Below are positions 1-24,010 of a DNA stretch of 64,000 nucleotides, one piece after another. The translations under genes were made by a program, and so were the position numbers. Positions within the stretch are counted from its first letter, which is position 1. Each line of letters opens with the position of its first letter. Source of the DNA: Pedinophyceae sp. YPF-701. Taxonomy: Eukaryota > Chlorophyta > Pedinophyceae. The stretch covers positions 248,001 through 312,000 of the forward strand of contig CAJZHL010000024.1 of assembly GCA_916048055.1 (NCBI GenBank), in the 5' to 3' direction. The notes below the pieces were generated by a model. That model was not told the DNA's origin and made no database searches. It saw only the letters and a program-made list of their open reading frames with translations.

Positions 1-144
1 GCAGGGGGCTCGCTGAGGTAGACGTCCCCGGCAGAGCGGCGGCTTTCACATCAAACTTCGATATTGCCCGCGGTGCTGCGGCCCAGAACAGGCGAACGCC
101 GCAGACGCCGCGTCCCGCCGCTGGAGAAATACTACACCGGCGCG
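1..144 (+). repeat. 5' flank of array gene A, copy of the block before gene B
   Basis: This stretch runs up to the start codon of array gene A and closely matches 4029-4171 in front of gene B. Both start GCAGGGGGCTCGCTGAGG and end in a C/G-rich stretch, CGCAGACGCCGCGTCCCGCC, just before the start ATG. A more diverged version (7959-8104) precedes gene C. The conserved block probably holds the promoter and 5' UTR, which is an inference from position only. The window edge cuts its left end. Confidence 0.7.
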
Positions 145-3100
145 ATGGGCGGCCGCAAGGTGAGTCGCGCGCTCCGTCGCCGCGGGAATCGAGGATCGAC
201 GTTTCGAGGCACGACTGCGTCTCAAAGTCGGCGCTCGTCCGCGCATGCGTTGCAGGACCTGGCGCGGCTGCAGGCCGAGCTAGACAAGATCTGCGCGGGC
301 AACGGAGATGCGGCCGCTCGCCGCGCCCGGGAGGCCCAGTTCACGGACTCTGCCCTCAAGCTTTTCAACGACCGACTGAGCGCGTTCGAGGCAGAAATCG
401 CCGCTCTAAGCGCCCGCAAACCACTACACAGCGACGGAGGCTCGGACGTCCCACCGACCGTGGTAGATGCGCACCAGACAGACGGGAGCGCCGATGATGA
501 CGGGGCCTGCACGGGCGCGGACGGCGCCGGAGCAGGGCGGGGCGGCCACATGGTGATCGACATGACGATGGAGGACTCGGACGGCGGCGGAGACGGCGCG
601 GCCCCAGCCGACGGCGCTCGCGCGGCCCCATGGCAGCGCCCGCATAAGCTGCACGCAGCGCCGAGGGCCGCGGCGCCTGCGCACGTGCGCCGCACCGGAC
701 GGAGCTCGCAGCCAGTGTTGTGGCCTGCGTTCCTGCCCGCTGCCCGCCGCGGACCGGAGCCACTCCACCTCGCCCCTGCGCAGGGGGGGTCTGCAAAAGA
801 CTCCGCTGCAGACCTCCACGCCAAGCTGTGCCTGACGGCGTATCACTGCACGTCCGCCGACGCGGCGCTGGCGCTGCTCGGCAGCGGGCGCCTCCGGCGC
901 GGCAGCGAGGCACAGGCTTGCAGCTTGGCAGCAGCGCTGCACGCAATCGCAGACGTCGGGAGCTTCGACGGGGACAGCGACGCGAACAGGACGATGGTGT
1001 GCAAGGTGAGCTGCTCGCAACGCGCGTGGCTGTGCGTGGGGACTCGCGCGCCCTGACGTCAGCTCGCAATGCCAGCGCTGGTTGAGTGCGGCCTCAATAC
1101 CCCCCCCCCACACAACCTCCACCCCCGCGAACATTCTGCGCCGCAGACTACCAAGGCTCTGCACGGTCTCCGGCGGAAGATCGAAGCGGGCGTGCGCGCG
1201 GCAGCTCTGCGTTTCCGTGTCGCGTGCGCGGGCACAGCAGACGGCACGCGCCCCGTCGCGCACCACGCCTTCCGCCGAACGACGCGCGGCAGTCGCAGAG
1301 TGCCCCCGAAACTGTGCCCCTCTCCGCATCTGGAGCAGCTCGTCACCTTCGAGCGCCTCGTCCTCACCGACGACGGCACGCTGCGGCTGGGCCCCGGCTC
1401 GCTTCTGCGGTGCCTTGCGGCGGGGCTCGTTGCCAAGCTCAACCGGCCCGAGCTGCTGCTGATGCCCGGGGGCACGGAGCTGCGCGTGACGCCGGCGCTG
1501 CTCGCGGGCCTGCTCTTCGAGGTGCGCGATGGCGCTATTTCCGACCACTTCACCCCCGTCATCTTGCGGCGAGATCGGCGGAAACGGCGCCACCCTTCTT
1601 CGACCGTGCTGCGCAGGCGGAGGTCATGTGCAGTCCGAAGAACGCGAGCCTGACTCTGGAAACCAAAGGCGTCCGCTTGGTACGACTCCGCCATATGTTC
1701 GACGCCTACGTCAGGCCGCTGACGCAGCTGCCGGACGGCGGCGGCGTGCTGCTGCCGCGAGCGCAGGTGGAGGCGTGGCTGAACGGAGTCGGGTGGCTGC
1801 CGGCGGCGTTCCGCGTGCCTGAGTCGGACCTGCCGCAATGCTTGTACATCTCGGGGCGCCCCGCGCGCGGCGCCGACGATCATTCTGTGGGCGCCGAGGC
1901 GGAGCTGACGCCGCGGATCGAGATGTGCTTGGCGCCGGGCAGCAGCAGCGATTCGGAGTTGTTGGGCGACGCCGATCAATGGCTACAGACGACGCGCCGG
2001 GCTTGCAGGGCGCGCTCGAGGCCCGATGACGTTGTCAAGGACAGTGGCGACGACCCCTCTCCGGCGACGTCCTCGTCGTGGCTGTCGGGTGCGATCGTGC
2101 AGCAGCGCTGCACGCGCGCGCACGTGGACGCCGAAAGCAGCGACGACAGCGACTCCAGCAGCGCGACGCCGAGCTCGGGGTACACGCAGCGTTTGTGCGG
2201 TCCTGGAACGGCGAAGGTGGGAGGCCTCGGGCGACCCAGGAACACCCCCCGGGGGGTGTCTTTCTTCACGGGACCAGAATGTGCTGCGAAGCTCTTCTTG
2301 CTGACCTGCCGCGCCACGCGCGCGGACGTCATCCTTGCGCTGGTGGGCAGCGGGCAGCTGCCGGGACTCAAGTCCATGTACAAGGACGTGGCGTGTGTTC
2401 CCGCGCCCCGCATTCTTGACGCATGCTTCCGGGCAGTGCGCGACGTCACCCAAGTCTCCGACCGCCCAGACGCAGCGAATTCGGTCATCGCAACGGTGAG
2501 CCCCCGCCTCGCCACGCGTGCGCTCCAGCAGCGAGGCCGGCGCAACGAAGCAGCATGCGCATCGCACAGCCCCAACACTGTTCTGTCTCCCCTTGGTGCA
2601 TTGAAGGGCCTGGAGACCGTCACAAATCTGGAACGGAACGCGACGAACCACATGCGCAGTGCAGCGCTGAGATTCAACGTCGGCGAGGCGGGCAACGGGC
2701 GTTCTCAGGAATTGAGTTGCAGAGCGTTCTGCCGTGCTGCACCTTCGATCTCGGGGCAAGGCCGCCTCTGTCCGACCAAAGACGCAGCGCGCCTCGCAAC
2801 CTTCGAGAGGCTCGTCCAGCGCCCGGACACAGGGCTGCGTTTCGGCGCAGGTTCCTTGCTGCGCCACCTCGCGGCGGCAGCCCTTGAAGTGCTCCCCCGG
2901 CGCGTGGCTCTGCTCACTGGCGGCGATGAGGAACAGATCCGGCTGACGCCGGCGCTGCTGGCCAGCATTCTCGTCGAGGTGCGGTGACCCGCCTGCGGCT
3001 CCGTGGTAGCCTTGCTCCTCCGCGCCTTTATTAAGCACATCATCACGCGCTTGCAGCAACGTTGCTGGCTTGCGTTCCGATGCGGCGGTCGCATGCCTGC

Positions 3101-3513
3101 TGACGCACGGACCCCGCGCGTGGACCAGATTTACGACTTCTCATGTCCGCACCGCGCCCCCGCAGGCGGAAGACATGTGCACCCCCGTCAGCAACAAGCA
3201 GGCGTTCGGTGCGAGCCTCGCTCGGCTGATGCGGACGCGCCACATGTACGACGCGTACGTGCGCCCGCTCATGTCGCTCCCGGACGGCGGCGGCGTGCTG
3301 CTGCCGCAGGAGTACGTGGCGGCGTGGCTGCCGGGCGTGAACTGGGTGCCGGCGGCATTCCGCGTGCCGAAGGTGGACATAACGCTCTGCTCCTCCGCAA
3401 AGGCATTCTGGAAGATCAACGATGAACGGCGCAAGCGGAAGCGCGGCCGCGAGGACGACGGCACCTCCGGACGGGACTCCGACGCTGAGCATCACACGTG
3501 GAAGCGCGCCTGA
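145..3513 (+). CDS. Array gene A: two-module protein of an unrecognised tandem family (912 aa)
   Basis: Exons 145-159, 256-1005, 1147-1521, 1617-2495, 2607-2978 and 3166-3513, all joined in phase 0. I do not recognise the family. Exon 1 encodes only MGGRK. Residues 6 to about 60 look helical (DLARLQAELDKI), followed by an acidic, Ser/Asp-rich linker. Module 1 has the YHCTSADAALALLGSG region (about residue 200), the FERLVL...LLAGLLFEV exon, and AEVMC...DAYVRPLTQLPDGGGVLLP. A second acidic linker leads into module 2 (LTCRATRADVILALVGSG, then the matching two exons). The C-terminus is basic (RRKRKRGRED), a possible nuclear localisation signal. Neighbours B to F are paralogs in the same orientation. 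The exon 5 acceptor (TTGAAG) is the weakest junction. Start and junctions come from alignment with B and C. Function is unknown; a nuclear role is only a guess from the basic tail. Confidence 0.72.
2241..2260. repeat. 20-bp near-perfect palindrome inside the coding linker of gene A
   Basis: AACACCCCCCGGGGGGTGTC, palindromic except for its outermost base pair, lies in frame in exon 4 and encodes N-T-P-R-G-V. A shorter version sits at the equivalent place in gene B (6307-6324). Each half matches a C-rich/G-rich motif scattered through noncoding parts of the window. Confidence 0.8.
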
Positions 3514-4171
3514 CTCAGGGCGGTGCGCGAGAACGAGCAGCGACGAGAGCGACGGCGCTTCAGCACCGGGGGGCGCGGGCCAGGCGGCAGCATCAGGGGC
3601 CGGGCGGTGCCGTCGCGGGCTGGCAATGGCAATGGCAACGGCGACAACAATCGACGACGCCAGGTCTGGGCAGCCACGTGCGGAGTGCGGAGCGCTCGGG
3701 CTGCTGGGCTGGCGCTGCGGTGGCGACGAGCGGGTGCGGACGAAGGAGGACGATCTTGCGCGCGCAGAATAGAGAGACAGTGCGTGGAGCTTTCGAATTG
3801 TGTGCCTCGACGGAGGCTGCATCGAGGCTCCGTTCTCTCCGCGTGTGAGCTGCATGCATCGAGGCACGGTCGCGCGTCCCGTGATCGCGACGCAAGCTGC
3901 AGGGGCGCGGGAATCCGAGGTCGTGTCAGGTACAACACACCCCCCCTGGACGTGGCGTGCTGCGTTGCGCGTCGCCGGCATCTTTGCGCCCCTGAGAGAC
4001 ACCGCACACTCAATTCCGTCCTCGCGTGCAGGGGGCTCGCTGAGGGGGCCATTCCCCCGGCAGAGCGGCGGCTGGAACGGCCATCTTCGACCTTGCCCGC
4101 GGTTCTGCGGCCCGGAACCGGCAAACGCCGCAGACGCCGCGTCCCGCCGCTGGAGAAACTACACCGGCGCG
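3514..4171. other. Spacer between array genes A and B
   Basis: No convincing gene. The stop codon of A is embedded in a TGACTCA palindrome (3511-3517). The spacer contains a small GGCAAT-type repeat near 3622-3645, and a segment at about 3830-4030 that resembles 7750-7970 in front of gene C. Positions 4029-4171 repeat the 5' flank of gene A. Probably terminator plus promoter sequence of successive duplicates. Confidence 0.6.
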
Positions 4172-7100
4172 ATGGGCGGCCGCCAGGTGAGTCGCGCGCC
4201 TCGCCGCAGCGGGGAAAGAGGATCGAACTATTGACTCACGACTGCATCACCGGTCCGACGCGCCCGTGCATGCGCTGCAGGACCTGGCGCGGCTGCAGGC
4301 CGAGCTAGACAGGATCTGCGCGGCGAGCGTGCGAGAAGTCCCCGCGGACGCGCATGCGCACCGGCTCACGGAGCGATCTCTCGCCCAGCTCTGTGCCCGA
4401 GTCAGCGCCCTGGAGGCGGAGCTCGCGCACCTGAGCGACCGCAGAGCACTAGTCGGCGACGGAGGTGCTAGCGACCCGAGCGACGGAGGCTCGGAACGTT
4501 CGGACGTAGCACCGACGGCGGTCGACCCACAACTGACGCCGGCAAGCGACAGTGACGACGCGAACGGGGCTGCTGCTGGCGCGGAAGATGCCGGGGAGAT
4601 CCGGGGCGCCCACGTCGGCGACATCAGGATGGTGGCCGACAGCGAAGACGGGCCAGGCGACGGCCCATCGAACGGCGACGACGCACCCTTGTCGTACGCG
4701 GACGGGCCGACGAGCGCTGGCGAGGCTCCGCAGGGGAGCGACGACGACGGCGCGCGGCGCGCGGTGCTGTGGGCGTCCTTCGTGCCGCCTGCGCTGCGAG
4801 AGCAGGAGACGATGGAGCTGAAAGCCCCGATCTCGGCAACTGTCGAATCATCGCTGCGTCGCCTCGGCACCGAGGACAGCAGGAAGCTGGCTCTGCTGAC
4901 GTACGTGTGCACGGCCGCGGACGTGGTGCTTGCGCAGCTCGGGAGCGGGCGCAGGGCGAAATGCGGACGAGGCGCCAGCTCGGAGCGTTCGTCCAAGTGC
5001 GACAACATGAAGACCGCTCTGGTCGCGACGAAGGATCCGAGGGTCTACCGCGACCTTTTTGGACGTGGCGTAAAAAGCCAGCGGGTCAGTGCATCACAGT
5101 CCGGCGCCAAGCCTCCCTCCTCGCGCCACATAAATCGCAGTCAGACGGAGTCCATGGTACAACACTCTAAAATGACGTCAGTTGGATTCCTCCCACCGCA
5201 GGCTTTCACGAACGGGCAGAACCTCTTCGCAAACCACGCTCGCGCCGGCGTGCGCGCGGCGGCCCTGGGCGTGACCGTCCCTGCTGACGCGGAGGCTTCG
5301 AGGGCTACCAGCGGCGCAACCACCGGGCCGCGCACCGCGTTCCGCCCCTGCGAGTCTCCCCGGAAATGCCTCCGTCCGTCTCGGAGTCTCGGGGACCTCG
5401 TCACCTTCGAGCGCCTCGTCCTCCGCGACGACGGCCGCACGCTGCGGCTCGGCCCTGGGTCTTTGCTACGCTGCCTTGCCACGGGGTGGCTGGCGAGCTT
5501 CGACCGATGCGACCTGCTGCTGATGCCGGGGGGCGAGGAGCTGCGCGTGACGCCGGCGCTGCTCGCGGGCCTGCTCGTCGAGGTGAGGCCTCCTGGATCG
5601 AGATTCGTGTTTTGCTTTTTTATTATTATTCTGCCAGGCCCAACTGGTCGTCACTGCTCGCAACTGCACGATCGAGGCACGGCCCGACCTTGCGAGTGCG
5701 TGTCTGCAGGCGGAGGACATGTGTACTCCTCCGGAACGCAAGTTACCGCTCGCCGCGCCCGGACATCGCGTGCTGCGCATGCGGGAGCTCTTCGACACGT
5801 ACGTCAGGCCGCTGACGCAGCTGCCGGACGGCGGCGGCGTGCTGCTGCCGCAGGCACAGGTGGAGACGTGGATGCCGGGCGTGGGGTGGCTGCCGATGGC
5901 GTTTCGAGTCCCGAAAAACAAAGTACCGGGCTGCTTGTTTTCTCAGTACGGGGCGGCACACAGGCTGCAACGACCGCAGCGATCGGGCTCGGACGCGCCT
6001 CCGCAGGCCTCGAGCGACGACGTTGCGGACGACGCGGATGCTTCTGGGAGCTCCCGCGACGGGTCGTCTTCGCCGTCGCCGACGCGTCGCAGAGGGCGCG
6101 GAGGGTGCGAGGCTGACTCCCGGACGGACAGCGGCGCTGACCTCTCCCCGACGTCTTCCCCGTCGCCGACGCAAGCGATCGCGCTCCGCACGCGGGCGCG
6201 CGAGAACGCGGGTGACGGCGGCTGTGGCGAGGTGCCGAGCACAGGACATGTGCGTCATGGACCAAGCGAGGCACAGACGACAGCGAGAGGTCTCGAGCGG
6301 CCCAGAAACACCCCGGGGGGTGTTCCTTTCATCGACAGTAATCAAGGAGCTGCCAGACTCTTCGCGCTGACCTTCAACACCACGCGTGCGGACGTGATCC
6401 TGGCGCTGGTGGGCAGCGGAGAGCTGCCGGGGCTGAAGCGGAAGTACAGGGATACGGCGGGGCGCGCGCCGGGAGCTCTCGACGCGTGCGTGAGGGCAGT
6501 GCGAGACGTCAGTGTCTTGTCCGACCGGCAACTCGGTGCGCGGGCGATCATCTCAAAGGTACGGCCGAGACTCCGACGGCGCGTCACGACAAAAGCAACG
6601 CACGTGTCGCCTTCTGAGCGCCATCGGCATGTCGTTATGCCTCGCAGGTGTCTAAGATCGCCCGCGCCCTGCGTCAGCTCGCAGAGGCCCGTATGCGCAA
6701 GGCAGCGCTGGGCTTTACTGTCAAGGGTGCAGACGCCCGAGCACGAGGGAGCCGGCCGGCATTCCGTCGCGCCGACAACGCCGAGAGCGCCCGGCTGTGT
6801 CCGGCCACTGACGCAGCGCACCTCGCGTCGTTCAAGCGGCTCGTTCTGCGCCGGGATGGGCGGCTGCAGCTCGGCGGAGGGTCCCTGCTGCACTGTCTCG
6901 CGGCGACGTGCGTCGACGCGATTCCCGGGTACGGTGCTCTGCTGGCTGACTCGGTTGAAGGGCAGGTCCGACTGACGCCGGGGCTGCTGGCCGGCGTGCT
7001 CGTCGAGGTGCGGCGACTCGTCTGTGCGCCTCAGAGGCGGCTGCGCTCCTCCTCGCAGCTTTTGCTGCGATCCATGAACACAATACGTCGCATTTGAATT

Positions 7101-7606
7101 CGCAGCTGCAACGTTGGATGCTTATGTTTGTTTCACGGAGCGGCGATCGCGCACACGGCCCAGCTCGCTCGCTTACACCGAGACCGTGCCTGAAACAGCC
7201 CCCTTCACGCCCCTGTCCGCGCCACAACCCCGCGCAGGCGGAAGACATGTGCACCCCGGTCGGCGAGAAGCTGCCGTCGGGCCGCAGCAAGTACCTTCCT
7301 CGCATGTTGCGGATGCGCCACATGTACGACGCGCACGTGCGCCCGCTCATGTCGCTCCCGGACGGCGGCGGCGTGCTGCTGCCGCAGGCGCATGTGGCGG
7401 CGTGGCTGCCGGGCGTGCACTGGGTGCCGGCGGCCTTCCGCGTGCCGGAGGACGAGATCGCGCTCTGCTCTGTCGGAACAACTCTTGTCAAGACGGTTAA
7501 GGGACGGCGCAAGCGCCAGCGCAGCGCTGATGACGACGACAGCTCCCACGGCGGCGCCGGTGCACAGCAGCTACCACAGCAGCGCCGGAAGCGGAGGCGC
7601 GCATGA
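4172..7606 (+). CDS. Array gene B: two-module paralog (920 aa)
   Basis: Exons 4172-4186, 4281-5069, 5202-5582, 5710-6558, 6648-7007 and 7238-7606. All junctions are phase 0 and at positions equivalent to gene A. Exon 1 encodes MGGRQ. The order is helical N-terminus (DLARLQAELDRI), acidic linker, module 1 (LTYVCTAADVVLAQLGSG; FERLVLRDDGRTLRLGPG; AEDMCTPPERK...DTYVRPLTQL), a long Ser/Asp/Arg linker, module 2 (LTFNTTRADVILALVGSG; LASFKRLVLRRDGRLQLGGG; AEDMCTPVGEK...DAHVRPLMSL), and a basic tail (KGRRKRQR and QQRRKRRRA) suggesting nuclear targeting. The donor of exon 2 could be GTAAAA at 5070 or GTCAGT 12 nt further on; both keep phase. Closest relative in the window is gene A, with which it also shares upstream DNA. 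No known domain recognised. Confidence 0.72.
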
Positions 7607-8104
7607 CAGGGCGGTCCGCGAGACAGGTTGACGACGAGCGCTCGAGCAGCGCGGCTGCGTCACGCAGCACTGCGTTGGCACTTGACGTGGTCGTAAATGC
7701 TCACAACAACACGAGTTTCATCGATTGATGACTTGTAGACGGTCCTGGTTGAGGCTCCGGTTCTCGCACGCGTGTGAGCTGCTTGCACCGCACCGTCGTC
7801 CTGCACGCCGTGGTCGTGGCGCGGTACGAGCCGCAGGGGCGCGGTCAGGCGAGGCTGCGTCAGTCAGAGGTGAGACCCCCCCCTCCTCGATGCTGCTTGC
7901 GCGCATCGCCGGCTCTTTGCGCTCGCGAGACCCGCGACGCATCGAACTCTGTCCTCGCATGCAGCGGGCTCGTCGAAGGGGACGTCGCCGCCACAGCGAC
8001 GGCTCCAACGTCTGCGGTGATCTCACGGGCGCGCCCCGCTTCTCGGGGCCGCAACAGGGCGTTTTTTGCGGTTTCCGCTGCCTGAAAAATACTGTTCAGA
8101 CACC
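7607..8104. other. Spacer between array genes B and C
   Basis: No coding signal of its own. The part from about 7750 to 7975 is a diverged copy of DNA in front of gene B (shared pieces include GTGTGAGCTGC and GTCCTCGC near the end). It is presumably the promoter of gene C, inferred from position and duplication. Confidence 0.55.
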
Positions 8105-11100
8105 ATGAGCGGGCGAAAGGTCCGTCGCGCGGCCCATCGGTGCAGAACACGAGGATCGACTCGAGCCACATCTGTGTCTCCGACCTGACGCGTCCGTGCA
8201 TGATTGCAGGACCTGGCGCGGATGCAGGCCGAGCTCGATAAGATCGTACGAGCCGGGAGCACGCGACCGCCCCGTCAGAAGGCCGCGGAGCCTCGTCTCG
8301 CGGAGCTTCCCCTCGACCTGCTTCGGTCCCGACTAGGCGCTCTTCACGCGGAGCTCGCGGCGCTAAGCGCGCTCAAACCGCAAACCAGCAACCACGGCGT
8401 CGACGAGCCGAGCGAGAGCTCGGACGTCCCACGCACGGCGGTGGATTCCCAACCACCCGAAGTCAACGAAGAAGACGTCAAGGGAGGGGGCGCTGCCGCG
8501 GACGACACCGGCGCGGCGCACGGCGGCTACGTCGTCGACCTGACGGTCGCGGACTCGCGCCGCAACGGCGGCGCAGGCCCGGCCAACAGCGCCCGCGCCG
8601 CCCACCCGCCCCGGCGCCACAAGACAGGGCCCGGGACGGGCGTGCGCCGCACGGTGCACCGCCTCGCGCGGGCGGCGCTGTGGCCCGCGTTCGTGCCCGC
8701 CGCGCTCCGCGAGCAGGAAACGCTGGAACTCCCCCCCATGTACGTGGCCGCTGTCGGGTCCGACGCAGACCTCCACGCGAAGCTGTGTCTGACGGCGTAC
8801 CAGTGCACGCACGCCGACGTCGCGCTGGCGCTGCTCGGCAGCGGGGAGTTCCAGCGCGGCGGGGACGCCGGGACGCCGGGGAGGGGGGGGAGTGATTACG
8901 ACGTTGCGCTGCGGGCGATGAAGGACGCGGAGGTGCTCGCCGGCGACGGCGACGAGCACAGGGAGCTGCTGCGCACGGTGAGGACCATGCAGCGGCGACC
9001 TGAGCGCCTGATGAGAGAGCAGCACCATGTGTCGGTGCTCTGTCAGACCCAGTGCATGCAACACCCCCCCCGTTGCTCCTGCGATGCAGAAAGCCCTGGC
9101 AGTGCACGACGTTCGCCGGAGGCTGGAAGCCGGCATGCGCGAAGCAGCTCTGGACTTCGAGGTCGCGGTCACCGACGCAGCGACCCACGGCGCCATGCGT
9201 CGCGCCTTTGTACGCCGGTCGCCCACGGCGCAGTCCAAGCTGTCCCCGTCCCCGGGCCTGGAGCACCTCGTGACGTTCGAGCGCCTCGTCCTCGGCGACG
9301 ACGGCCGCGCGCTGCGCCTGGGCCCCGGATCGCTGCTGCGGTGCCTTGCGGGGGGCCTCGTGTCGAGGACGACCCGGCCTGAGCTGCTGGTGATGCCCGG
9401 GGGCGCGGAGCTGCGCGTGACGCCGGCGCTGCTCGCGGGCCTGCTCGTCGAGGTGCGCGTCCCGCGTCGTCACGCCCCCGAAATTCAAATATGACTCCCC
9501 CTTGCAGCCAGTGCAGCCCGCGATCGCGCGGCCGGCCCTCCACCGCGCGACGCAGGCAGAGGACATGTGCACGCCCGCGAACGCGAGCTTCAATCTGGAC
9601 ACGAGGGGCGTCCGCGTGCGGCGCACGCGTGCGCTGTTCGACACCTACGTGCGCCCGCTGACGCAGCTCCCGGATGGCGGCGGCGTGCTGCTGCCGCAGG
9701 CGCACGTGGAGGCGTGGCTGCAGGGCCTGGGGTGGCTGCCGATGGCGTTTCGCGTTCCAATCGAGCTTTTCCCTCACTGTCTGTTTCCACCGAACGTCCG
9801 ATTGCCAGTGCCAAGCAGCGTGAAGGATACGCGGGTGCGGGAGCGCGGAGCAGCTGCTGCGAGGCCGCAGGAGCCCGCGACGTCGGACGCGGGCGCGCTG
9901 GCGCAGGCCTCGAGCGACGATGGCGCGGACGGGGATTACACCCCCGGCGCCTCTCGGGAGGCCTCCCCTTCGCTGCTGACGCAGGGCGCCGGCGACGCGC
10001 GCGCGGCGCGCAGCGACGACGACGTCGACAGCGGGGACGAGTCGTCGGGAGCGTCGTGGTCGTCGGCGCCGTCGTTGGCGCTCTCGCGGCACGCAGCACC
10101 ACTACAAGCGGAAAGTGCCGTCGACGAGGCGAAGCTGTTCTTGCTTACGTACAGCGCGACGCGTGCGGACGTCATTCTCGCGCTGGTGGCCAGCGGCGCG
10201 CTGCCGGGGCTCAGAAAGAAGTACAAAGGCACTGGAGGTCCTCAATGCAGCATTGAAGACTGTCTGAAGGCCGTGCGCAACGTATCTGAGGTCTCCCGTC
10301 AAGAGGCTGCTGCGAGGCCTCTGGTGGCCAAGGTGCGCTGCCCGCGGAACGGTCCGCAGGCTCGCGACCGCGCTGCGCGCAACGCACGCGCATGCACGCG
10401 TGCGTGTGCGGATCGAAATGCCTGGGAAGTGACTGACGCGCCGCACGTCTTTCTGTGTTTTGCAGGTGAAGGAGGCCACGCATGATGCGACGAGAGCTGC
10501 GGCGAATCGACTCTACAGCGCGGCGTTGCATTTCCGTGTCTCGTCTGCCAGCACGGTGCTTTCAGAGTCGGACCCAACAACGGGCCGCCCCGCGTTCCTC
10601 CGGGTCCAGGGTAACGCGAAGGGGGGCTCCCTCTACCCGCACCCCAAGGCCGCGAAGCGCGGCCTGGTGACCTTCGAGCGGCTCGTGCTGCGGCCCGGGG
10701 GGGGTCTGCAGCTCGGCGAGGGGTCTCTGATGCACTGTCTGACAGCGGCGTGCCTCCGCGGACACCCCCAGCGCGCCCTGCTCTTAACCGACGGCGGACG
10801 AAGGTTCCGGTACACTCCCGCGCTGCTCGCGGGTCTCCTCGTCGAGGTACCAAACCCCCAACCCCGCTGCACAACGCAGCGCTTGCACCTGACGCAGGCC
10901 CCCCACGCGCCACCTGCCGCTCCCCGCACTCACGTCCACGTCCTGGTCCATCCATTCCCGTCCTTCCCCGCTCCCCGCGTCACGTGCCCGCAGGCAGAGG
11001 ACATGTGCGCGCCCGTAGAGCACAAGCAAGCCTTCGAGATCGTCGGCCGCCGGACGCTGCGCATGCGGCACATGTTCGACGCGTACGTGCGGCCCCTCAC

Positions 11101-11308
11101 GCAGCTGTCGGACGGCGGCGGCGTGCTGCTGTCGCGCGTTCGCGTCGAGACGTTGCTGCCAGGCGTGCCGTGGCTCCCGGTGGCGTTCCGCGTGGCCGAA
11201 GCGGACCTGCCGCGGTGCTTCCGGCGCGTCGTGCATGCTGACGCCAAGCCCTCGAAGCGCGGGCGCGAAGCGGACGGCGCCGGCGGCTCGAAGCGGAGGC
11301 GCGCGTGA
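8105..11308 (+). CDS. Array gene C: two-module paralog (872 aa)
   Basis: Exons 8105-8119, 8210-8977, 9090-9452, 9556-10332, 10466-10846 and 10994-11308, all phase 0. Exon 1 encodes MSGRK. Its donor is GTCCGT where A and B have GTGAGT, an unusual change. Exon 2 carries DLARMQAELDKI, an acidic linker and LTAYQCTHADVALALLGSG. Exon 3 has VTFERLVLGDDGRALRLGPG. Exon 4 has AEDMCTPANAS...DTYVRPLTQL plus the inter-module linker and LTYSATRADVILALVASG. Exons 5 and 6 complete module 2, ending in a basic tail (SKRGREAD...SKRRRA). In place of the proline/glycine palindrome linker of A and B there is a Ser/Asp/Ala-rich segment. Family unrecognised. The conserved intron positions make the model reliable. 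Confidence 0.72.
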
Positions 11309-11856
11309 CGCGGAGGCTGTCTGGGCTGAGTCAGCCGCGGCGCACGCCTGCGCTCCGTGCGTCCGGGAGGACGCGCGCGGGCGAGGCGGTGCGGAACGCG
11401 GTGCCGCTGTGTAAGTGCATGCAAGCTCGATTCCGCGGTGGTCGACGTCGATTGCTGCGACGGTACGTGTTCCGTGATTACGCCTGGAGGGCCGTCGTGG
11501 TGCTGGAAGCGATGCTGCCTGCGCGACGCGACACAGGATGCCAGGGGGCGCTTCCGCGGACGGGGGCGCTTCCGCCGGCTCGACGGCGGCCTGGGGGTGT
11601 CTCGCAAGTCCAGTCAGGACGCATTTGCGGTCCGACAGTCCGACTGGCGGGCTGGAGATGCCACACCGTTGCTGGACCGGGGCGCCCGTCGCACGAACAG
11701 CCCGCTCCGGCACGCAGAAGGTCCGCCCAGCGCCCGCTCGTCCGTCGAGGCGGGGCTACGTTCGCCTCGTGCGCCAGCCGGGCCTCCGGGGCGCTCGTCC
11801 AGGGGCGAACCCATCTGTTTGGGCCGCAATCCGGCTCGTGAATCTCACGGGGCACG
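11309..11856. other. Spacer between array genes C and D, containing the D/E upstream repeat
   Basis: The first about 180 nt hold no recognisable feature apart from a TGAGTCA palindrome at 11327-11333. From about 11488 to the start of gene D the sequence is repeated almost base for base at 14207-14568 before gene E. Short open frames here are antisense or random and show no conserved protein. Confidence 0.6.
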
Positions 11857-11871
11857 ATGTCGACCGGTCGG
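11488..11871 (+). repeat. Upstream repeat, copy 1 (before gene D)
   Basis: About 380 bp, beginning GGAGGGCCGTCGTGGTGCTG and running through the five-codon first exon of gene D. Copy 2 is at 14207-14583. The two differ by small indels and scattered substitutions, which indicates recent duplication or gene conversion. It likely holds the promoter and 5' UTR of the D/E subfamily. Confidence 0.8.
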
Positions 11872-14018
11872 GTGAGCTCGAGCGTCCACGAATTCGTCGC
11901 AACGGAGCGTTCACACGTTGGTTCAAGCCCTCACGATTCCTCGCCCGTTCGCTTCGAATCGCGCGCCACTGCAGGATCTGCTCCCCGACATTCTTTCGAT
12001 GCTGACCAAGATCCACGCCGGCCTGCAGCAGCAACGCCAGACGGGCCCAGACGACGGCCAGCCGCTGGCGGATCTCCTGATGGACAGCGCGACCCTCGGG
12101 AAGCTCACGGCGATGTCCGACGCCGCCGACGCCGTTCCCGGCCAGGAAACGGCGCAGCCCGACGCGGCGTGCTCCGTTTCGGTCCCGGACACCCAGGTTG
12201 ACGACTGGAGCGGCCACGAAGGGTCGGAGACGAGCGACCCGGTCGACTCGCAGGTCAGGCCGCCCGCGCAGGGCAAGCGCCACCCCACCGTGCCCTCCTC
12301 GTCGACTCTCGAGGACGAGAGCAGCGACGAAGACGCGGACGCCCCCGCGGACAGCAACGACCCTGGTCGCTCAGTCGAACGTCAAAACCTCGCCGCACCG
12401 GCGCCGCGTCGACCGGCTGACAGGCCGCGCGCTCCCCTCACGTCCTCCTCGTCCGACGGCACCCTCTCAAGCATCCCTCTGCGTCCGCCAGCGACCCCTG
12501 CGCGCGCAGCGCAGCGGCAGGTGCCCGACAGGCTGCGCCCGCCGGCGCCGCGGCCCGCCGACCGCGACGCCTGCCCCGCGAAGCTCATTCTCTGGCCGGC
12601 GGCCCTGCGGGCCGCCGACCGCCAGGCGGCGTACTTCAGGCGGAACGCCGTCAAGCCTCCGCCGGGGGCCGTCGACAGTGGGAGAGTCTGCCCCCTGGGC
12701 GTGGAGGGCAACGCCAAGCTGACGCTGTTGACGTACAGCTGCACGGCCGTCGACGCCCTGCTCGCCCTGTGCCGCTGCGAGTCGATGCCCCGTCTGACAC
12801 GGAAGTATAACGACATCAGGAACAGGAGGGGTCCCTTCGCGGCGGCCATGGCGGCCGCGGCTGACGTCGAGGCGGCGTTCGCGGACCACAAGGTGGCGTT
12901 CCACATGATGACCAAGGTGCGGGCCCGCCTCATGCGCCGGCGCGGAAGACCCCCCGCCTGTCGTTGCGCAAAGGAGGGGGGGGGTGTTTTGGCATTCTCG
13001 AAGCTCCTTGCTGCCCGTGCGCCGCCGCTGCAGCTCATGCACACGATCAACGACATGCGGGCGGCCTGCGATCGGAAGGTGCGGAATTCCGCGCTCGCCT
13101 TCACCGTCGTCGACGAGGCCTCCGGGACGCACAGGCGCCGGGCGTTCCGGGTCTGGCCCGGCAGTTCCGGGCGCAAGTGCGAGCTGTGTCCGTGCGAGGA
13201 CCTCGAGGACCAAGTGACGTTCGAGCGCCTCGTCGCGGCCGAGGACGGCGGGCTGCAGCTGGGCGCGGGGTCGCTGCTGCGGCGGATTGCCACGACGTGG
13301 GTCTCGGCGTTCCGCAGGCAGTGGCTGCTGCTCGCCGATCAGGAGACAGGCGAGCTGCGGGTCACGCCGGCGGTGCTGGCGGGCCTGCTCGTGGAGGTGC
13401 GCTGGCGGTCAGACACGCAGTTGTCAGTCTGTCAGACACAGCCGTCGCGACCGCAAACTCGGTGTGCCGCCACGCGCTGTGCTTGCGGCAGTGGGTAGGA
13501 GAGCGGGAGGGCCGGCGTTCAGTCGCATCCGCATCCACTCGCGCCGGCGCCGCGTCAAAACAACCCCCCCCTGACATCATCCGCCCGTTGTCGTTCTTTC
13601 GCAGGCGAAGGAAATGTGCACGCCTGCGGGTCAGAAGAGCGCCGTTATCGGACGGGACCGATCCGCGGAGCACCGCGAGATGTTCGACACGTACGTGCGC
13701 CCTCTCATGAGTCAGCCTGACGGCGGGGGGGTGTTGCTGCCCAAGGCGCAGCTGGCGACGTGGCTCGACGACGTGGGCGCGCTGCCGGCCGCGTTCCGCG
13801 CGCCGAAGGAGAAGCTGCCCGGCTGTCTCGGCCCCAAGAGGCACGGGAAGCCCTACGAGCAAGCGCCTGTCCCTGAGAGCGCTGGCGGCGGCGCAACAGG
13901 CGGGCAGCGGGCCAAGCGTGCCAGCGACCGGCAGCCTGGCCACCACAGCAGCAAGCAGCCGAGGCTGGTGATTCGGGACTACCGGGGCATCATCCGCGAG
14001 AGAGTGGAGAAGGAGTGA
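11857..14018 (+). CDS. Array gene D: one-module paralog (577 aa)
   Basis: Exons 11857-11871, 11975-12916, 13034-13396 and 13605-14018, all phase 0. Exon 1 encodes MSTGR. Exon 2 starts DLLPDILSMLTKIHAG (helical), followed by a long polar linker with an acidic patch (LEDESSDEDADAP) and Pro/Ser/Arg-rich sequence, then LTLLTYSCTAVDALLALC. Exon 3 has VTFERLVAAEDGGLQLGAG...LLAGLLVEV. Exon 4 has AKEMCTPAGQK...DTYVRPLMSQPDGGGVLLP and a C-terminal RDYRGIIRERVEKE, shared in form with gene E. Compared with A to C it lacks the second module. The last intron shows a clear CTGAC 29 nt before the acceptor. Function unknown. Confidence 0.72.
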
Positions 14019-14568
14019 GCGCGCCCACGTTGCATGACGACTTTGGCGTTGAGGTGAGGCTGTTGGAGTAGCGGGTGGGACAGCAGGGACGGGTGTGAAT
14101 GAGAGGAGCCAACGGACTGCCGCGGACGTGTCGGAGAGTCGCGGAACCGGCACGCTCGGGGCCGGAGTCAGCCCGTGGTGTTATGTCATACCGTGATCGC
14201 GTCAGGAGGGCCGTCGTGGTGCTGGAAGCGATGCTGCCTGCGCGACGCGACACAGGATCGCAAAATCCGCGGACGGGCGCGCTTCCGCCGGCTCTCCGGC
14301 GCCTGGGGGTGTCTCACGAGTCCAGTCAGGCCGCTTTTGCGGTCCGACAGTCCGACTGGCGGGCTGGAGATGCCACACCGTTGCTTGACCGGCGCGCCCG
14401 TCGCACGAACAGCCCGCTCCGGCACGCAGAAGGTCCGCCCAGCGCGCCCTCGTCCGTCGAGGCGGGGCTGCGTTCGCCTCGTGCGCCAGCCGGGCCTCCG
14501 GGGCGCTCATTCAGGGGCGAACCCATCTGTTTCGGCCACGTTCCGGCTCGTGAATCTCACGGGGCACG
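14019..14568. other. Spacer between array genes D and E
   Basis: The first about 150 nt (14026-14170) resemble 16753-16900 after gene E, with shared pieces such as CGTTGCATGA and GTGTTGGAGT-like sequence, so the 3' flank was duplicated with the gene. From 14207 it is the upstream repeat described for gene D. No independent gene seen. Confidence 0.6.
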
Positions 14569-14583
14569 ATGTCGACCGGTCGG
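14207..14583 (+). repeat. Upstream repeat, copy 2 (before gene E)
   Basis: Second copy of the block at 11488-11871, covering the putative promoter and first exon of gene E. The sequence around the start, GGGGCACGATGTCGACCGGT, is identical in both copies. Confidence 0.8.
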
Positions 14584-16685
14584 GTGAGCTCGAGCGTCCA
14601 CGGAGCGTTCACGCGCTGGCCCATGCCTGTACGTATTCCCTCACCTTTTCCGCTTCGTATCGCGCGCCACTGCAGGATCTGCTCCCCGACATCCTCTCCA
14701 TGCTGACCAAGATCCACGCCGGCCTGCAGCAGCAACGCCAGACGGGCCCAGACGACGGCCAGCCGCTGGCGGATCTCTTGCCACAGATGGACAGCGCGAC
14801 CCTCGGGAAGCTCACGGCGGTCTCCGACGCCGCCGCCGTTCCCGAGCAACAAACGGCGCAGCCCGACGCGGCGCGCTCCGTTTCGGTCCCGGACACCCAG
14901 GTTGACGACTGGTCCCGCTCCCAACGCGGCCGCGAAGGGTCGGAGACGAGCAACAAGGCCGGCGGGTCGCAGGTCAGGGCGCGCGCGCAGGGCAAGCGTC
15001 ACCTCACCGTGCCCTCCTCGTCGACTGTCGAGGACGAGAGCAGCGACGAAGACGCGGACGCCCCCGTGGTCAACAACAACACCAGCGCGGGCGCCCATGG
15101 TCGCTCAGTCGAACGTCAGCACCTCGCCGCACCGGCTCCGCGTCGACCGGCTGACGGGCCGCGCGGTCCCCTCACGTCCTCCTCGTCCGGCGACGACGGC
15201 GCCCTCTCAAGCGTCCCTCTGCGTCCGCCAGCGACCCCTGCGCCGCCGGTGCCCGACAGGCTGCGCCGGCCCGCCGACCGCGACGCCTGCCCCGAGAAGC
15301 TCATTCTCTGGCCGGCCGCGGTGCCTGAGTCTCAGCGCCAGGGCGAGTACTTTCCCAGGACGGTGCTCGCCCACGTTTGCGGCGCCCCCGCGCAGGCATC
15401 CTCGCTGGGCGCCGAGGGCAACGCCAAACTCGCCCTGCTCGCGTTCCACTGCACGAACGCGGACGCTGCGCTCGCCCTGCTCGGCTGCGAGAAGTGCCCG
15501 GCGCTCGTCAGCGCGGCCCGCTCGGCGCTGGCAACGCGGCAGCGCACGCACCTGGAGCTCGCGTTGGAGGCCGCCGTTGACGTCGGATCGGTCTTCGCTC
15601 CCCCGAGCGCGTCCAAGACGATAACGAAGGTCCGCGGCCCGCCGGATCCGCGCCAGGATGTCGCCGACTGCAGGTCACACGCTAAGAGACTCCCCACGGA
15701 ACTCCCCCCCTGCAGCTGACTCACTCGGTGAACGACCTGCGGGCTCGTCTGGACCGCAACCTGCGTGCAAGCGCCCTGGAATTCACCGTCGCGGTCCCCA
15801 ACCACGTCCCCGCCGGCCACAGCCGCCACGATCCGCCCCCCGCCACAGACGCGAACGCCGCAGCACCCCGCAGGGCCTTTCGGCGGTGCTCCGTGGGGAT
15901 CCGGAAGAGCGAGCTGTGTCCCACAGCGGATCTCGAGTCCGTGGTGACCTTCAAGAAGCTCGTTCTGGACGCAAAAGGCCCCGGGGGACTGAATCTTGGT
16001 GTCGGGTCGCTGCTGAGGTGCATCGCCAAGGCGTGGCTGTCGGGGCTGCGCAGGCAGAGCCTCCTGGTCGTCGGCGGGGACGGGGAGCTGCGGGTGACGC
16101 CGGCGGTGCTGGCGGGCCTGCTGTACGAGGTGCGCCGAGGGTCAGCGGTTTTGTCTTGTTTTTTTTTCGCCTTGTTCCTGGACAGTGACTGATCTCACGC
16201 AGCCGTAAAGAACCTCCGCGTTACCACGAAGTGTGCGTTTGCGGCGCGAGCGCCGCGCTCACCGAGATCACGTAGGAGACCGCGCTCAATACCCCCCCCT
16301 TTCACAGGCAGAAGAGATGTGCACTCCTCTGCGCCGCAAAGTGGCGTTCGGCGCCAACGGCCACCGCACGCTCCGCATGCGCTTCATGTTCGACACGTAC
16401 GTGCGCCCGCTCATGCGTCTGCCGGACGGCGGCGGCGTCCTGTTGTCTACGCAGCGGCTCGCCACGTGGCTCCCGGGCGCGGGCGCGGTGCCAGTGGCGT
16501 TCCGCGTGCCGAAGGAGAAGCTCCCGCACTGCCTCGGCGTGTCCAGTTGCGTCGGCCGCCCGCCGGGGTCCGGCTCCAAGCGCGGCCGGGGGCCTGACGC
16601 AGGCCCCGACAGCGGGCGGAAGCTGCCGAAGACGGTAGTGCGGGACTACCGGGGCATTGTCCGTGAGAGGACGGCGGGGGACTGA
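14569..16685 (+). CDS. Array gene E: one-module paralog (586 aa), closest to D
   Basis: Exons 14569-14583, 14676-15629, 15716-16129 and 16308-16685, phase 0 throughout. MSTGR is followed by DLLPDILSMLTKIHAG, the same as gene D; the N-terminal linkers are also nearly the same until about residue 200, after which the two diverge. Exon 2 ends with LLAFHCTNADAALALLGC. Exon 3 has VVTFKKLVLDAKGPGGLNLG...LLAGLLYEV. Exon 4 has AEEMCTPLRRK...DTYVRPLMRLPDGGGVLLS. The C-terminus carries SKRGRGPD and then RDYRGIVRERTAGD. Near-identical N-terminal halves beside diverged modules point to gene conversion or recent duplication of the 5' part of D and E, which is inferred. No known domain recognised. Confidence 0.72.
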
Positions 16686-17304
16686 GGATAGGGCGGATCA
16701 TCGCGCTTGGATGAGCTGCGGCGCCCGGGGGCCGCGCCGTCGACGGCGGTCTTCCGTTGCATGAACACTTTGGCTCGAAGTTGAAGGTGTTGGAGTGGCG
16801 GGCGTGCCGAACGGGGACGTATGTGAGATAGAGGAGCCAATGGGGCTGCCGTGGACGCGTCGGACGGTCGCGGGACCCGCGCGTTCGGGGCCGAAGTCGC
16901 AGGTGAGGGTGCGCTGCACGTGCGCGCGCAACGACGCAGGGGTGCTGATCGGATCCTGGACGGTTTCGAGGAGGTTGCTCGTGACGCGCCTGCGCAGTGT
17001 CGTGCAGGCGAGCTCCCTGGCGGTCTCGGGGGGGGGTCTCTCGGGTGTTAAAAGGACGACGGAAGGCCTCCGCGCGGCATTGCACGCGTCAGGATTGCGT
17101 TGCTGCGGCTCGTTCGGCGCACATCGGTCGCCATGTGCTGTCGCAGAGGCAGAACATAATTGCCGTGGGTAGTTGGACCGCCGACAGGCCGTAGCGTCTC
17201 GCGCAAAGCGGATCAAGAGTTTATCGGGTCGATTTCTGCGCTCGTGCGCGCCCTGCACGGAACGTCCACGTCACCACAGCAAGCGCAGCGGCATCGGCGA
17301 CGAA
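16686..17304. other. Spacer between array genes E and F
   Basis: The region around 16753-16900 is a diverged copy of the 3' flank of gene D. The remainder up to the gene F start shows no coding signal or repeat that I can support. Confidence 0.5.
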
Positions 17305-19240
17305 ATGCCGCGGCGTCAGGTGAGGCGCAAGACCACGAAGCCGTCCTGCGGGCATGTTGAGCTGCAGGAACTTGGCCTCCCGCGGCGCCCGATATGTGTG
17401 TTGGATTTGCGCGATGCAACTCTCGCTCGATCGATCGAATCACGATTGTACCTATGATGTTGTTGCAATGTCAAGCTGTGTTGTGGCGGAGACGCCCAGC
17501 GCGTCCTCGGTTCTGATTTGACCCGCAGGCAACGGAGCCCCTACAGACGCCGCCAGGGACAAACAACCACCTATATCTCACCGTCGACGAAGATTCAGAT
17601 ACCTCTGCGAGCTCCAGTTCGCATAGCGTGGCCAGCACCGTCAAGGACGAGTCCCTGGAGGCCGGAGACGAGGCTCCCAGCGGTCTCGGCGCCTCCGCGC
17701 AGCGCCGACGCGACCGCAGCCCCGAGACGTCCGGTTCCGACTCCGAAGAAATCCCGCTCCAGCCCGCGGAGCACGTCCCCGCCGGCCGCTCGCCGCGACG
17801 GAGCAACACACGGCTCGCTCCCGCACCCAACCGGCGAGCCTCTCAACGCAGCGCGGCAGCAAAGCCCCTCATCCCGCCGCTACCGAGATACATGCGCGAC
17901 AGAGAGGCCAGAACGTCGCGGAAGGCCGCGGTCCGACGCTCCCCAACCGTCCCCCGCCCCATCGTGGCCAACAACGCTGCGGGGCTCTCGACCCTCCACA
18001 CTGCCAAGGTCTGCGCGCTCGCGTACCACTGCACGCACGCCGACGCCCTCTTGGCGCTCCTGGGCGCCGGGAGCGTCGTCTGCGCGAAACCAAGCGCGAA
18101 CATCGCGCAGCACAGAACTGTTAGTTCTGCCGCTAATAGCAACAGCTACTTTGGCGTCGTCATGCGGGCCATGGGCGACATGGGCGACCTCGCGACCATC
18201 TGCTCGAACCCCAGGGAGACCTACCGCGCCGTCAAGAACGTACGCTCCCGCCACGTCCCCCCCTGAAAACACGCAACACCCCGCGACGCGCACACTCACT
18301 CACCGCCGCGGCGCCGCGCGCCGCCTGACCCGCAGCTGCAGGCCGCGGCGAACGCGATGAAGCGCCGCGCCACGCGCGCGATGCGCGTGGCGGCCGCGGA
18401 GACCTTCGCGCTCGGCGACGGCGATCACGACCCGCCGCGTCTCGTGTTCATGACGTGCGGCGACGGGCTGCAGACGCACGACGTGTGTCCGCGCCCGGAG
18501 GCGCTGCACCTCGCGGACTTCGTCAAGCTGGTCTTCCGCGAGGACGGCAGCCTGAACCTCGGGCCGTGCTCGCTGCTGGAGCTGCTGGCGTCCGCGTGGA
18601 TCCAAAGCTTCCCGGAGTCTGACCTGCTGCTCTCGGAGAGGGGGGAGTATTGCCTGACGCCGGCGGTGCTCGCGGGGCTCCTGCTCGAGGTGCGCGGCGG
18701 CGATCGCGCGCGTTGCGACGTGGCGTCGCGGCCCGTTGCCACTTGCGGTGCAAAGCTGGCGCTGTGTTGGCGTGGCTGCGAGCGCCGTGCCCGCATCGGC
18801 GTGATCGCTGGCTCCACCGCCGCGACATCGGCCCGCTGCACGGCCCGTGCCATGGTCTGACTATGTCCTAGGATTGAGTGTTGAGGAATTGATAATAATT
18901 TGATAATAATTGATAATAATATGACTTTGTTTGTGTTGCCGGTGCTGTGCAGGCAGAGGAGATGTGCACGCCCCCCGAGGAGAAGCGCTCGCTCCACGAC
19001 GGCGGTCTGCCCCGCCTGCGCGAGACATTCGACGTCCACGTGCGCCCGCTGCTGTCGCGCGTCGACGGGGGGGGGGTGTTGCTGCCGGCGGCGCGCACCG
19101 CCACGTGGCTCCCGGGGGTCGACCGCCTCCCGATGGCCTTCCGTGCAGGGAAGCAGGGCCTGCCGAAGTCCCTGCGCATGGCCGCGCATCAGGCGCGGTA
19201 TGACGCGGGGGGGGGTCCGATTCGCGAGAGGATCCGCTGA
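17305..19240 (+). CDS. Array gene F: shortest one-module paralog (455 aa)
   Basis: Exons 17305-17319, 17529-18239, 18336-18689 and 18953-19240, phase 0. The first exon MPRRQ was found by analogy with the other five genes: ATG plus four codons, then GTGAGG. The first intron ends TTTGACCCGCAG. Exon 2 lacks the DLARLQ/DLLPDI helix and instead begins ATEPLQTPPG with a Ser/Asp-rich stretch, then LAYHCTHADALLALLGAG. Exon 3 has LADFVKLVFREDGSLNLGP...LLAGLLLEV. Exon 4 has AEEMCTPPEEK...DVHVRPLLSRVDGGGVLLP and ends PIRERIR, a remnant of the D/E tail. It is the most diverged member. The stop codon lies in a TGAGTCA palindrome (19238-19244). Confidence 0.68.
18889..18922. repeat. AT-rich TTGATAATAA repeat in the last intron of gene F
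   Basis: About four imperfect copies of TTGATAATAA, an isolated AT-rich island in otherwise GC-rich sequence. It lies inside the intron 18690-18952, so it has no coding effect. Confidence 0.75.
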
Positions 19241-19645
19241 GTCAGGACAGCGGGCCACCAGTCCGACCGCGAGGACGGCGCGCGCTTGGACACGTTGCGC
19301 GCCTGCTGGGGAGGTCGGGTGTATGTCTGGTGGAGTGCGGCGTCGCTGCTGCTCGTAACCATCAATGCACAAAGAAAACAACGCAACAGAGATCGGCAAA
19401 TCATATGTCTCGTTTCGTCAGACTAGTCGCTCTGGCTTGCAGCTGCACAGCAGGGGCCTGTCGCAGCGCGCGTCTGCCGCGCGACGGGGCTTGGTCGGCG
19501 CTGTGACGACTTAGTGCGCACCCGTGTCAGGTCTTTGTCTGACGGAGGGACCTTCGGGGCGCTGGTTGCGGCGGCGGCGGCCCGCGCACGCGGACTTCGT
19601 TCGGGGCGAGCAGCTGCGCGCGCGCGGGGCCCGGAGAAGCCCAGG
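19241..19645. other. Spacer between the tandem array and thioredoxin reductase
   Basis: An open frame runs through its right part into the reductase, but without family similarity. Presumed 3' flank of gene F plus promoter/5' UTR of the reductase. No repeat recognised. Confidence 0.5.
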
Positions 19646-21650
<2,005 letters not shown>

Positions 21651-21979
21651 CCTAGCCTACTGGCGCAGCCGCAGCTGCGGCGAAGTGTGACTCAACCGAG
21701 CCTCTCTCCCGCCGCCCCTCTCTTGCTCCCTCTGCGCGAGCAACTGGTACACAAAGACGGCGCGACTGAAAGACGGCACGGTCGCTACTGCGGCTGTGCG
21801 GTGGGTGCAGTGCTGTGCTTGGGTGAGACGTCTCGTTTCTCTCGCCGCCGCCCTGGAGGCTGGTCCGCACGCCCAGCTCTCATAGCCCGTTTCACAACAT
21901 CTGCCGCCGCGGCAGTCTCGCGCGGGGCGCGCTCAGCTGCGGCCTCCGTTGCTGTCGCCGCCAGTGCTGCGCTGCGCCG
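21651..21979. other. Convergent spacer between thioredoxin reductase and NME7
   Basis: 3' flanks of two genes transcribed towards each other. It contains a TGACTCA at 21688-21694. No gene or conspicuous polyadenylation signal seen. Confidence 0.5.
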
Positions 21980-24010
21980 CTACACGATGAGCTCGAAGAA
22001 GTACTGCACTTCGAGGCCCGCGTCCTCCTCGAGGTCGGTGCAGTGCACTGCGTTCTTCGCGCGGCTCTGCCCGAACACCGCGCGGATCGTCTCCTGCCGC
22101 AGCAGCCGCGCCAAATCCGGGTCCCGCGGCCCGCACAGCTGCCTGCAGCCGCAGACGCGCACGCAGCCGACAGACAGTGAGAGCGCACGCCACACAAGAG
22201 AAGAATGCGCGCGAGCCGCGGACACGACGCGGCAACTGCGCTGCACGTCGCCTGCAACGCACACGCATGCGCGTTTCCGCGACCACGCGGCTTCGAAACG
22301 CCGCAGTGAGCGCGCTCCGCGCTGAAGCATGCAAAGGTACGTCGTGTGCGCGCCGAGCTGCGGCGGTGCGGCGCGCGCGTGCGCACCGGAACGACTCCAC
22401 GGTGTCGGCGCCCTCCGCGCCGGGGGCGACCTCGAGCGCCAGGAACGGCCCGGACGTGATCTCCTCGAGCATGTCCGAGAACTCGTCCGGCGGCACGACG
22501 CCGCGGTATACCTCGTAGAACTCGCTGGCGTCGGTGCGGTTGAGCGACACCAGCTGCAGCGCGGTCACGTCGAACTGCGCCTGGATGACCTGGAGGATGG
22601 AGCCGGCGCGGCCGTCGAGGAAGGCGTGCGGCTTGATGATGCCGAGCGTCGTGGACCCGTCGTTCACGCAGCACTTGCCCACGCTGCGCAGCAGACGACG
22701 CGGGGCGCAGCGGCAGTGTGCGGGGGCCGCGCGACGCCGTGCAACGGACCGCACACACACGCAGCTCCGCACTCGAGAACGACAGAGAGACAGAGAGAGC
22801 AGAGCCCTCGCGCTCGGACGCGCGAGCGCCAGCACGCGTGCACGCATTGCAGCTGCGGGCCGCATCGGCGCCGCGCTCACCTGCCACGCCCGGCCCCGAA
22901 GAAGAACTCCACCTCCTGCGCCGCCGTCTCCGGCGCGTCGCTCCCGTGGCACGCGTTGCGCGTCTTGTCCGTTCCGAAGCGCGCCCGGATGGACGCGGGC
23001 GCCTCCTCGCGCGCCGCGGCCGCGTCCGTGGGCCCAATGAGGTCCCTCCAGGCCTTGATCGCGTCCTCGCGGAGCAGCTCGAGCGCCACGATGCGCCCTG
23101 ACGTCATGTAGTCCACCAGCGTCGGGTAAAAGGGCTTCCCGCGGTGCACAGAGTAGAACTCCTCGGCCTCGGCGCGCGAGAGCCGGCACATGCGCATGTT
23201 CTTCACGCGGAAGCCCGCCTTCGTGATGTCCGTGAGGATCTCGCCCGCGTGGTGCACGGCGTCCGGCTTGATCATCGCCAGCGTGCGCCCGAGTTGCTTG
23301 GCGAGCGCGCTCCGGGTCTCGTCGTCCGCGAAGTCCACCAGCTCGAGGCTCCGCCCGAAGATCATCAGCTTCGCGCCCAGGAAGAACCTGCGGGCGCGCG
23401 GCGCGGCGCGGCGCTCCTCTCGCGCACGACCATCGCAGCGGGCGCGCAGCTCTCCCCCGCGCTCACCGCGCAGCCACAGCGACGCGCGGGGTGGGAAAAC
23501 GCAAGGCCACGCGCGACGGAGTCGTTGCGGCGGCCGGCCGCGCGGAGCAGCGGCGCGGACTCGCCGCGCTGCACCTGCGCAGCTGGACGGTGCCGCTCGC
23601 AGCTGCGGGCGCACAGCACGGCCCCCGCACGCCCCCCGCAGCGGCGGAATCAGCACGGCTGGACCGGAGCTGCTCCACGCGGCCCAGCGCGGCCGCCCTG
23701 GGGGCCTGTCCGGCCCGGCACGCGCCGTCCGCGGGGCCCCTCCATGCACCCTCTGGCTCCTCCGAAAACGGGCGGGCGGCCCCGCGGCGCCGCGGGGGCG
23801 CCGGGCGGCGCCGCGCGCGCGGGCGGCGCACCTGTCGTCCGGGATGGGGCCCGTGGGGAGCAGGGCGGGTTTCAGGTAGGCCCGGCGGTTCTTGACGTCA
23901 TACAGTTCGACCTTGGCAGTCTCCCTGTGGTATGTGAAGAGGAAGGACCACTCCACGCCGGAGACGGGGTCGAGCCACGCGGCCTTGAAGTTGTAGGACT
24001 TCGGGTCCAT
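21980..24010 (-). CDS. NME7: NME7 nucleoside diphosphate kinase homolog (DM10 + two NDK domains, 381 aa)
   Basis: Exons in transcript order: 24010-23832, 23387-22881, 22683-22387 and 22142-21980. The N-terminal DM10 domain (about residues 1-88) includes AAWLDPVSGVEWSFLFTYH and ELYDVKNRRAYLKP. NDK domain A follows with LAMIKPDAVHHAGEI and RNACHGSD (His near 207). NDK domain B has LGIIKPHAFLDG and KNAVHCTD (His near 361), so both histidine motifs are kept. Length matches animal NME7 (about 376 aa). Known role of the family: component of the gamma-tubulin ring complex and a microtubule inner protein of ciliary doublets, with NDP kinase activity. Its presence suggests the organism makes flagella at some stage. 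It faces the gene at 24436 head to head, 425 bp apart. Confidence 0.93.

Follow-up and report, generated by a model that had tools for sequence, protein, structure and literature searches.

A family of tandem genes built from an unrecognized three-exon module in a pedinophyte green alga

Six paralogous genes (A to F) lie on the forward strand at positions 145 to 19240 of a 64,000-nucleotide stretch of DNA (the window; bases 248001-312000 of the 320,568-base contig C24) from the genome of the green alga Pedinophyceae sp. YPF-701 (27.9 Mb in 32 contigs). We consider it likely that they belong to a real coding family based on one unrecognized module and shaped by module doubling, tandem duplication, and sequence exchange between neighbors, with a proposed nuclear binding role. 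The current name of the alga is Akinorimonas japonica and its genome paper is Repetti et al. 2022, both as given in PMC12574857.

Modular organization and extent of the family

The repeated unit is a module of ~270 residues encoded over three exons (a, b, and c), of which genes A, B, and C carry two each and genes D, E, and F one each, for a total of nine in the window. A scheme of six single-domain genes was dropped when each frame of A, B, and C proved to contain the exon anchors twice. Exon a bears the signature AKLxLLTYxCTxADAxLALLGSG, exon b the signatures TFERLV.. and TPALLAGLLVE, and exon c the signatures MCTP, YVRPL, and PDGGGVLLP; comparison of the modules bore out the conserved blocks that a previous, sequence-only reading of this DNA had pointed to. 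Exon boundaries (GT..AG) fell at matching places, with both module introns in phase 0. The donor of intron 1 was GT in 16/16 modules compared and GC in G1, a diverged member described below. Both intron sites were kept in 17 of 18 modules: the matching intron positions claimed previously hold for genes A to F, and the family-wide exception is the module of gene Z, which alone is without intron 2. Upstream of the module, most genes had a 5-codon first exon, a short helix-like segment, and a charged linker.

Protein identity between modules was 30 to 60% (pairwise, 16 modules), with the mean highest for exon c (50%) and lowest for exon a (31%). The family resemblance is beyond chance because the gene D protein matched the exons of other genes with E values down to 3.8e-38 (gene E; 5.0e-32 for Z and 1.0e-23 for B), among 40 matches at E <= 0.01 in all, D's own exons counted in. 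Across 10 paralog pairs, nucleotide identity averaged 66, 67, and 72% in exons a, b, and c and 52 to 53% in the two introns, compared with 44 to 48% for shuffled sequence. The proportion of nonsynonymous differences (pN) was below that of synonymous differences (pS) in 8/8 module pairs. On these comparisons, the family is conserved as protein-coding sequence.

The family comprises at least 12 genes and at least 18 modules, and genome searches with the proteins of D, N, G1, and F revealed no additional locus; because only the best candidates were scored, 12 genes is a lower bound. The main array held nine genes on one strand (C24, ~236.9-267.2 kb), and 11 of the 12 genes fell within one ~45-kb stretch, again on one strand, the twelfth (N) being elsewhere. 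What had been described as a six-gene head-to-tail array therefore stands as six same-strand paralogs in the window but not as the size of the family, the count of six being an edge effect, since the array members Z, Y, and X lie upstream of the window. The members found outside the window were the following.

Z, Y, and X: C24, upstream of the window, same strand as A to F; Z has one module, Y and X two each.
G1: C24, ~222.0-224.0 kb; diverged, single module, ~10-15 kb before Z.
G2: C24, ~224.9-227.4 kb; diverged, single module, tail model incomplete, ~10-15 kb before Z.
N: contig C9, ~232.1-235.5 kb; two modules, sole member found off C24.

The G1 and G2 frames (L012:4041-5957 and 6926-9394) both had a similar ...VQF tail.

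Gene models and published annotation

The gene models for the six paralogs of the window are listed here.

Gene A: 145-3513, + strand, two modules; exons 145-159, 256-1005, 1147-1521, 1617-2495, 2607-2978, 3166-3513.
Gene B: 4172-7606, + strand, two modules; exons 4172-4186, 4281-5069, 5202-5582, 5710-6558, 6648-7007, 7238-7606.
Gene C: 8105-11308, + strand, two modules; exons 8105-8119, 8210-8977, 9090-9452, 9556-10332, 10466-10846, 10994-11308.
Gene D: 11857-14018, + strand, one module; exons 11857-11871, 11975-12916, 13034-13396, 13605-14018.
Gene E: 14569-16685, + strand, one module; exons 14569-14583, 14676-15629, 15716-16129, 16308-16685.
Gene F: 17517-19240, + strand, one module, putative start; exons ..-18239, 18342 (or 18336)-18689, 18953-19240.

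A 5-codon first exon was identified in Y, X, A (145), B (4172), C (8105), D (11857), and E (14569). It was looked for and not found in F, and for that reason the description of all six paralogs as intact is demonstrated for five of them (A to E). The acceptor of the gene A exon at 2607 was AAG, which is less usual.

Splice sites were fixed before the comparison with published proteins, a comparison of prediction with prediction and not transcript proof. The genes that have a published model contain 26 module junctions, of which 21 agreed exactly, one (F intron 1) was off by 6 nt, and four fell in exons omitted from those models (B module 1 and A module 2). Transcripts that do not follow the proposed exons had been named as an observation that would count against the genes, and the published models, as predictions, gave no sign of them. 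Model P0006 of gene A retains module 1 but passes over the first two exons (a and b) of module 2; P0005 of gene B starts at module 1 exon c and is concordant from there on; P0001 of gene D is concordant at both module introns and removes a further piece of the N-terminal exon; and P0002 of gene F has the same intron 2, with the intron 1 acceptor 6 nt earlier. The present work thus supplies corrected gene models for a family in which C, E, Z, and G2, four genes out of 12, were without a published model among the eight protein matches and at least three models were shortened or exon-skipping.

Duplication, sequence exchange, and selection

The tree of all 18 modules grouped the six first modules together (support 89/95), did the same for the second modules of X, Y, A, B, and C (96/93), and set the G1/G2 pair apart (100/99). 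Because first and second modules group separately, the internal doubling of the module appears, from this tree, to have preceded the gene duplications in the array genes. A probable trace of exchange between neighbors was seen in genes D and E.

Gene D 5' flank and N-terminal part: 11500-12590, + strand; 81-99% identical to gene E ~14220-15310 over eleven 100-nt steps.

Beyond this shared 5' block of ~1.1 kb, identity between D and E fell abruptly to 40 to 78% through the module, and their synonymous difference was 0.06 to 0.13 in the first 40-codon steps and ~0.5 from the module start. Conversion or unequal exchange accounts for such an abrupt step better than uniform divergence does. Genes A and B were 84% identical over their 5' ends. 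The near-identical N termini of D and E noted earlier were confirmed, and the suggestion of birth and conversion, understood as duplication with sequence exchange, drew support from both the module tree and the D/E step.

The ratio of nonsynonymous to synonymous substitution rates (dN/dS; simple Nei-Gojobori) was 0.60 to 0.80 for the modules of eight chosen pairs, values that are probably overestimated because the GC content at third codon positions was 0.86. Neither strong constraint nor positive selection follows from them, and they are compatible with weak constraint. With dN/dS below 1 in all eight pairs, the positive selection between copies that was to be looked for was not demonstrated, and a recognition or defense family, as proposed from the spread of the copies, is not supported so far, such a role being possible.

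Relatives, predicted structure, and location

Profiles of the module, of two modules, and of the wide family were used in three protein searches, which gave 2, 6, and 1 matches, amounting to eight different proteins already deposited, every one from YPF-701. Each search scored the best ~8,000 candidates, which had to share 5-residue words, so the lack of a relative elsewhere is not proof of absence and distant relatives could have escaped detection; the lack is also due in part to YPF-701 being the only pedinophyte nuclear genome searched. As far as these sequence searches reach, the family has been found so far only in this alga. Orphan families are common, and most newly sequenced genomes contain tandem ones.

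Eight modules searched against Pfam gave a best E value of 0.091, for a single member and not significant, and a wider set of eight gave no match; the two sets together made 16 module or protein rows, some common to both, none with a match at E <= 0.05. The best matches in PHROGs (E 0.17), in NCBIfam (E 0.12), and, for the longer structure model only, among BFVD viral folds (E 0.32) were likewise not significant. PADLOC gave no match for four proteins, Foldseek against the PDB with both structure models, plus VIA second looks, returned nothing significant, and there was no relative among 49 pattern matches in IMG/VR viral contigs. Ribosomal protein L18A was rejected as a relative, the best PDB-sequence matches (E 0.17 and 0.32) being taken as chance. 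The previous statement that the proteins match no family known to that reader was thereby supported, in that profile and fold searches of the spliced proteins gave no confident match.

The two structure models, built from 30 and 20 alignment rows representing few genes, both predicted a core in which a long helix and several others are combined with short strands. This core was confident in gene D at residues 241-390 (blocks of 60 to 96 in the predicted local distance difference test, pLDDT) and in the gene F model at its residues 21-180 (blocks of 72 to 94). The gene D model also placed a helix at residues 8-28, and the N termini of A, B, C, X, Y, and N carry a similar LQA.LD.I segment. Weak or absent fold matches for such models are not proof of a new fold.

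A simple self-made pattern for basic motifs resembling nuclear localization signals matched 8 of 12 tails versus 1 of 10 N-terminal regions. The idea that basic tails mark nuclear proteins is weakly borne out by this count, and a nuclear location is plausible. The acidic linkers that had been part of the same idea are not a property of all genes, the net charge of the N-terminal region being 0 in C and +3 in F.

Neighborhood of the array

Upstream of the window on C24, the interval from G2 to Z, which separates the diverged pair from the main array, holds two LRR genes (L010:4857-6239 and 6945-8018; LRR_6, E 4.1e-67 and 5.9e-58) that are distinct from the module family. An open reading frame (ORF) at L010:2216-3499 matches the Pfam entry for the Nup98 Gle2-binding sequence (E 1.6e-6) and also contains several imperfect repeats of the AGGGAPSNDTGRMSFG type. 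Just 3' of the array, on the minus strand, are a pyridine nucleotide-disulphide oxidoreductase exon and a nucleoside diphosphate kinase domain (window positions 20717-21229 and 21933-23462). Among neighboring ORFs at 27 to 62 kb, 10 of 42 long ones were scanned, with one sub-threshold Pfam match and no functional clue. A 10-base unit forms a perfect tandem array of 7.9 copies at window positions 63597-63675, and the telomere-type repeat CCCTAAA was not found in the window.

Interpretation and alternatives

We propose that one gene copy acquired a second module, that this two-module gene and the single-module genes would then have multiplied by tandem duplication on the same strand, and that neighboring copies may have exchanged sequence. 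The proteins would act in the nucleus and associate via the N-terminal helix, while the folded module would offer a surface that binds nucleic acid or a partner in the nucleus, the variable loops of exons a and b setting the copies apart. The functional part (nuclear location, self-association, and binding) is tentative: we favor it as the likeliest mechanism and hold it to be less likely than not. Several observations weigh against the account as a whole: the second module of N did not join the other second modules and had no resolved place in the tree; the confidence of the N-terminal helix in the gene D model was only 52 to 72; and the tails of Z, D, F, and G2 (4 of 12), the G2 tail model being incomplete, were without the basic motif.

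It is unlikely, yet deserves serious thought, that the module is a known domain diverged past recognition and that the genes arose by expansion within a known nuclear or regulatory family, given that the need for shared words limits search sensitivity, that the structure models draw on so few alignment rows, and that the viral fold library was compared with the longer model only. The module could also be a new fold, peculiar to pedinophytes, whose variable surface serves recognition or regulation in the nucleus and whose copies diversified as genes were duplicated in tandem, modules doubled, and sequence exchanged between neighbors; we hold this reading to be decidedly unlikely.

Helical-repeat families of organelle regulators expand in tandem in green algae, and nucleus-encoded regulators of organelle genes could present a similar picture. 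However, the predicted core consists of helices and short strands and not of repeated helix pairs, and Pfam gave no repeat match, its coverage of every PPR/OPR-type repeat not having been checked; we regard such regulators as very unlikely. Many copies of no known family would also suit proteins encoded by an active or domesticated transposable element, but the genes are concentrated in one one-strand stretch with a single member elsewhere, their introns are common to duplicates, and the Pfam scans found no transposase, integrase, or reverse transcriptase domain in any row, nor any other domain of the transposon kind that the sequence-only reading had named as a possible refutation. Nor does any inverted repeat of at least 25 nt bracket a single gene in positions 1-20000 (target-site duplications were not searched for); of the four such repeat pairs there, three are 7 to 12 kb apart and one lies inside gene C. 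A transposable element is very unlikely indeed. An orphan algal family could derive from a poorly sampled virus, but the spliceosomal introns common to the copies, together with the IMG/VR matches and the viral fold comparison, leave capture from a virus scarcely credible.

Comparison with known systems

Should the module truly be without relatives, the family of tandemly duplicated and doubled modules proposed here would be a clean case for the origin of a new folded domain and gene family in a eukaryote, as the array keeps copies with one module, copies with two, and diverged copies next to one another, and a probable exchange event between D and E is still visible. Like the NLR and LRR recognition families, it consists of tandem, diverging copies; unlike them, its proteins have no Pfam match to a nucleotide-binding or LRR domain. 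It differs from taxon-restricted tandem families with gene conversion in its three-exon module, used singly or doubled and with no recognizable domain, whereas it resembles them in having no relative detected beyond one species among the candidates scored, in its same-strand clustered copies with common introns, and in the abrupt step in identity between D and E.
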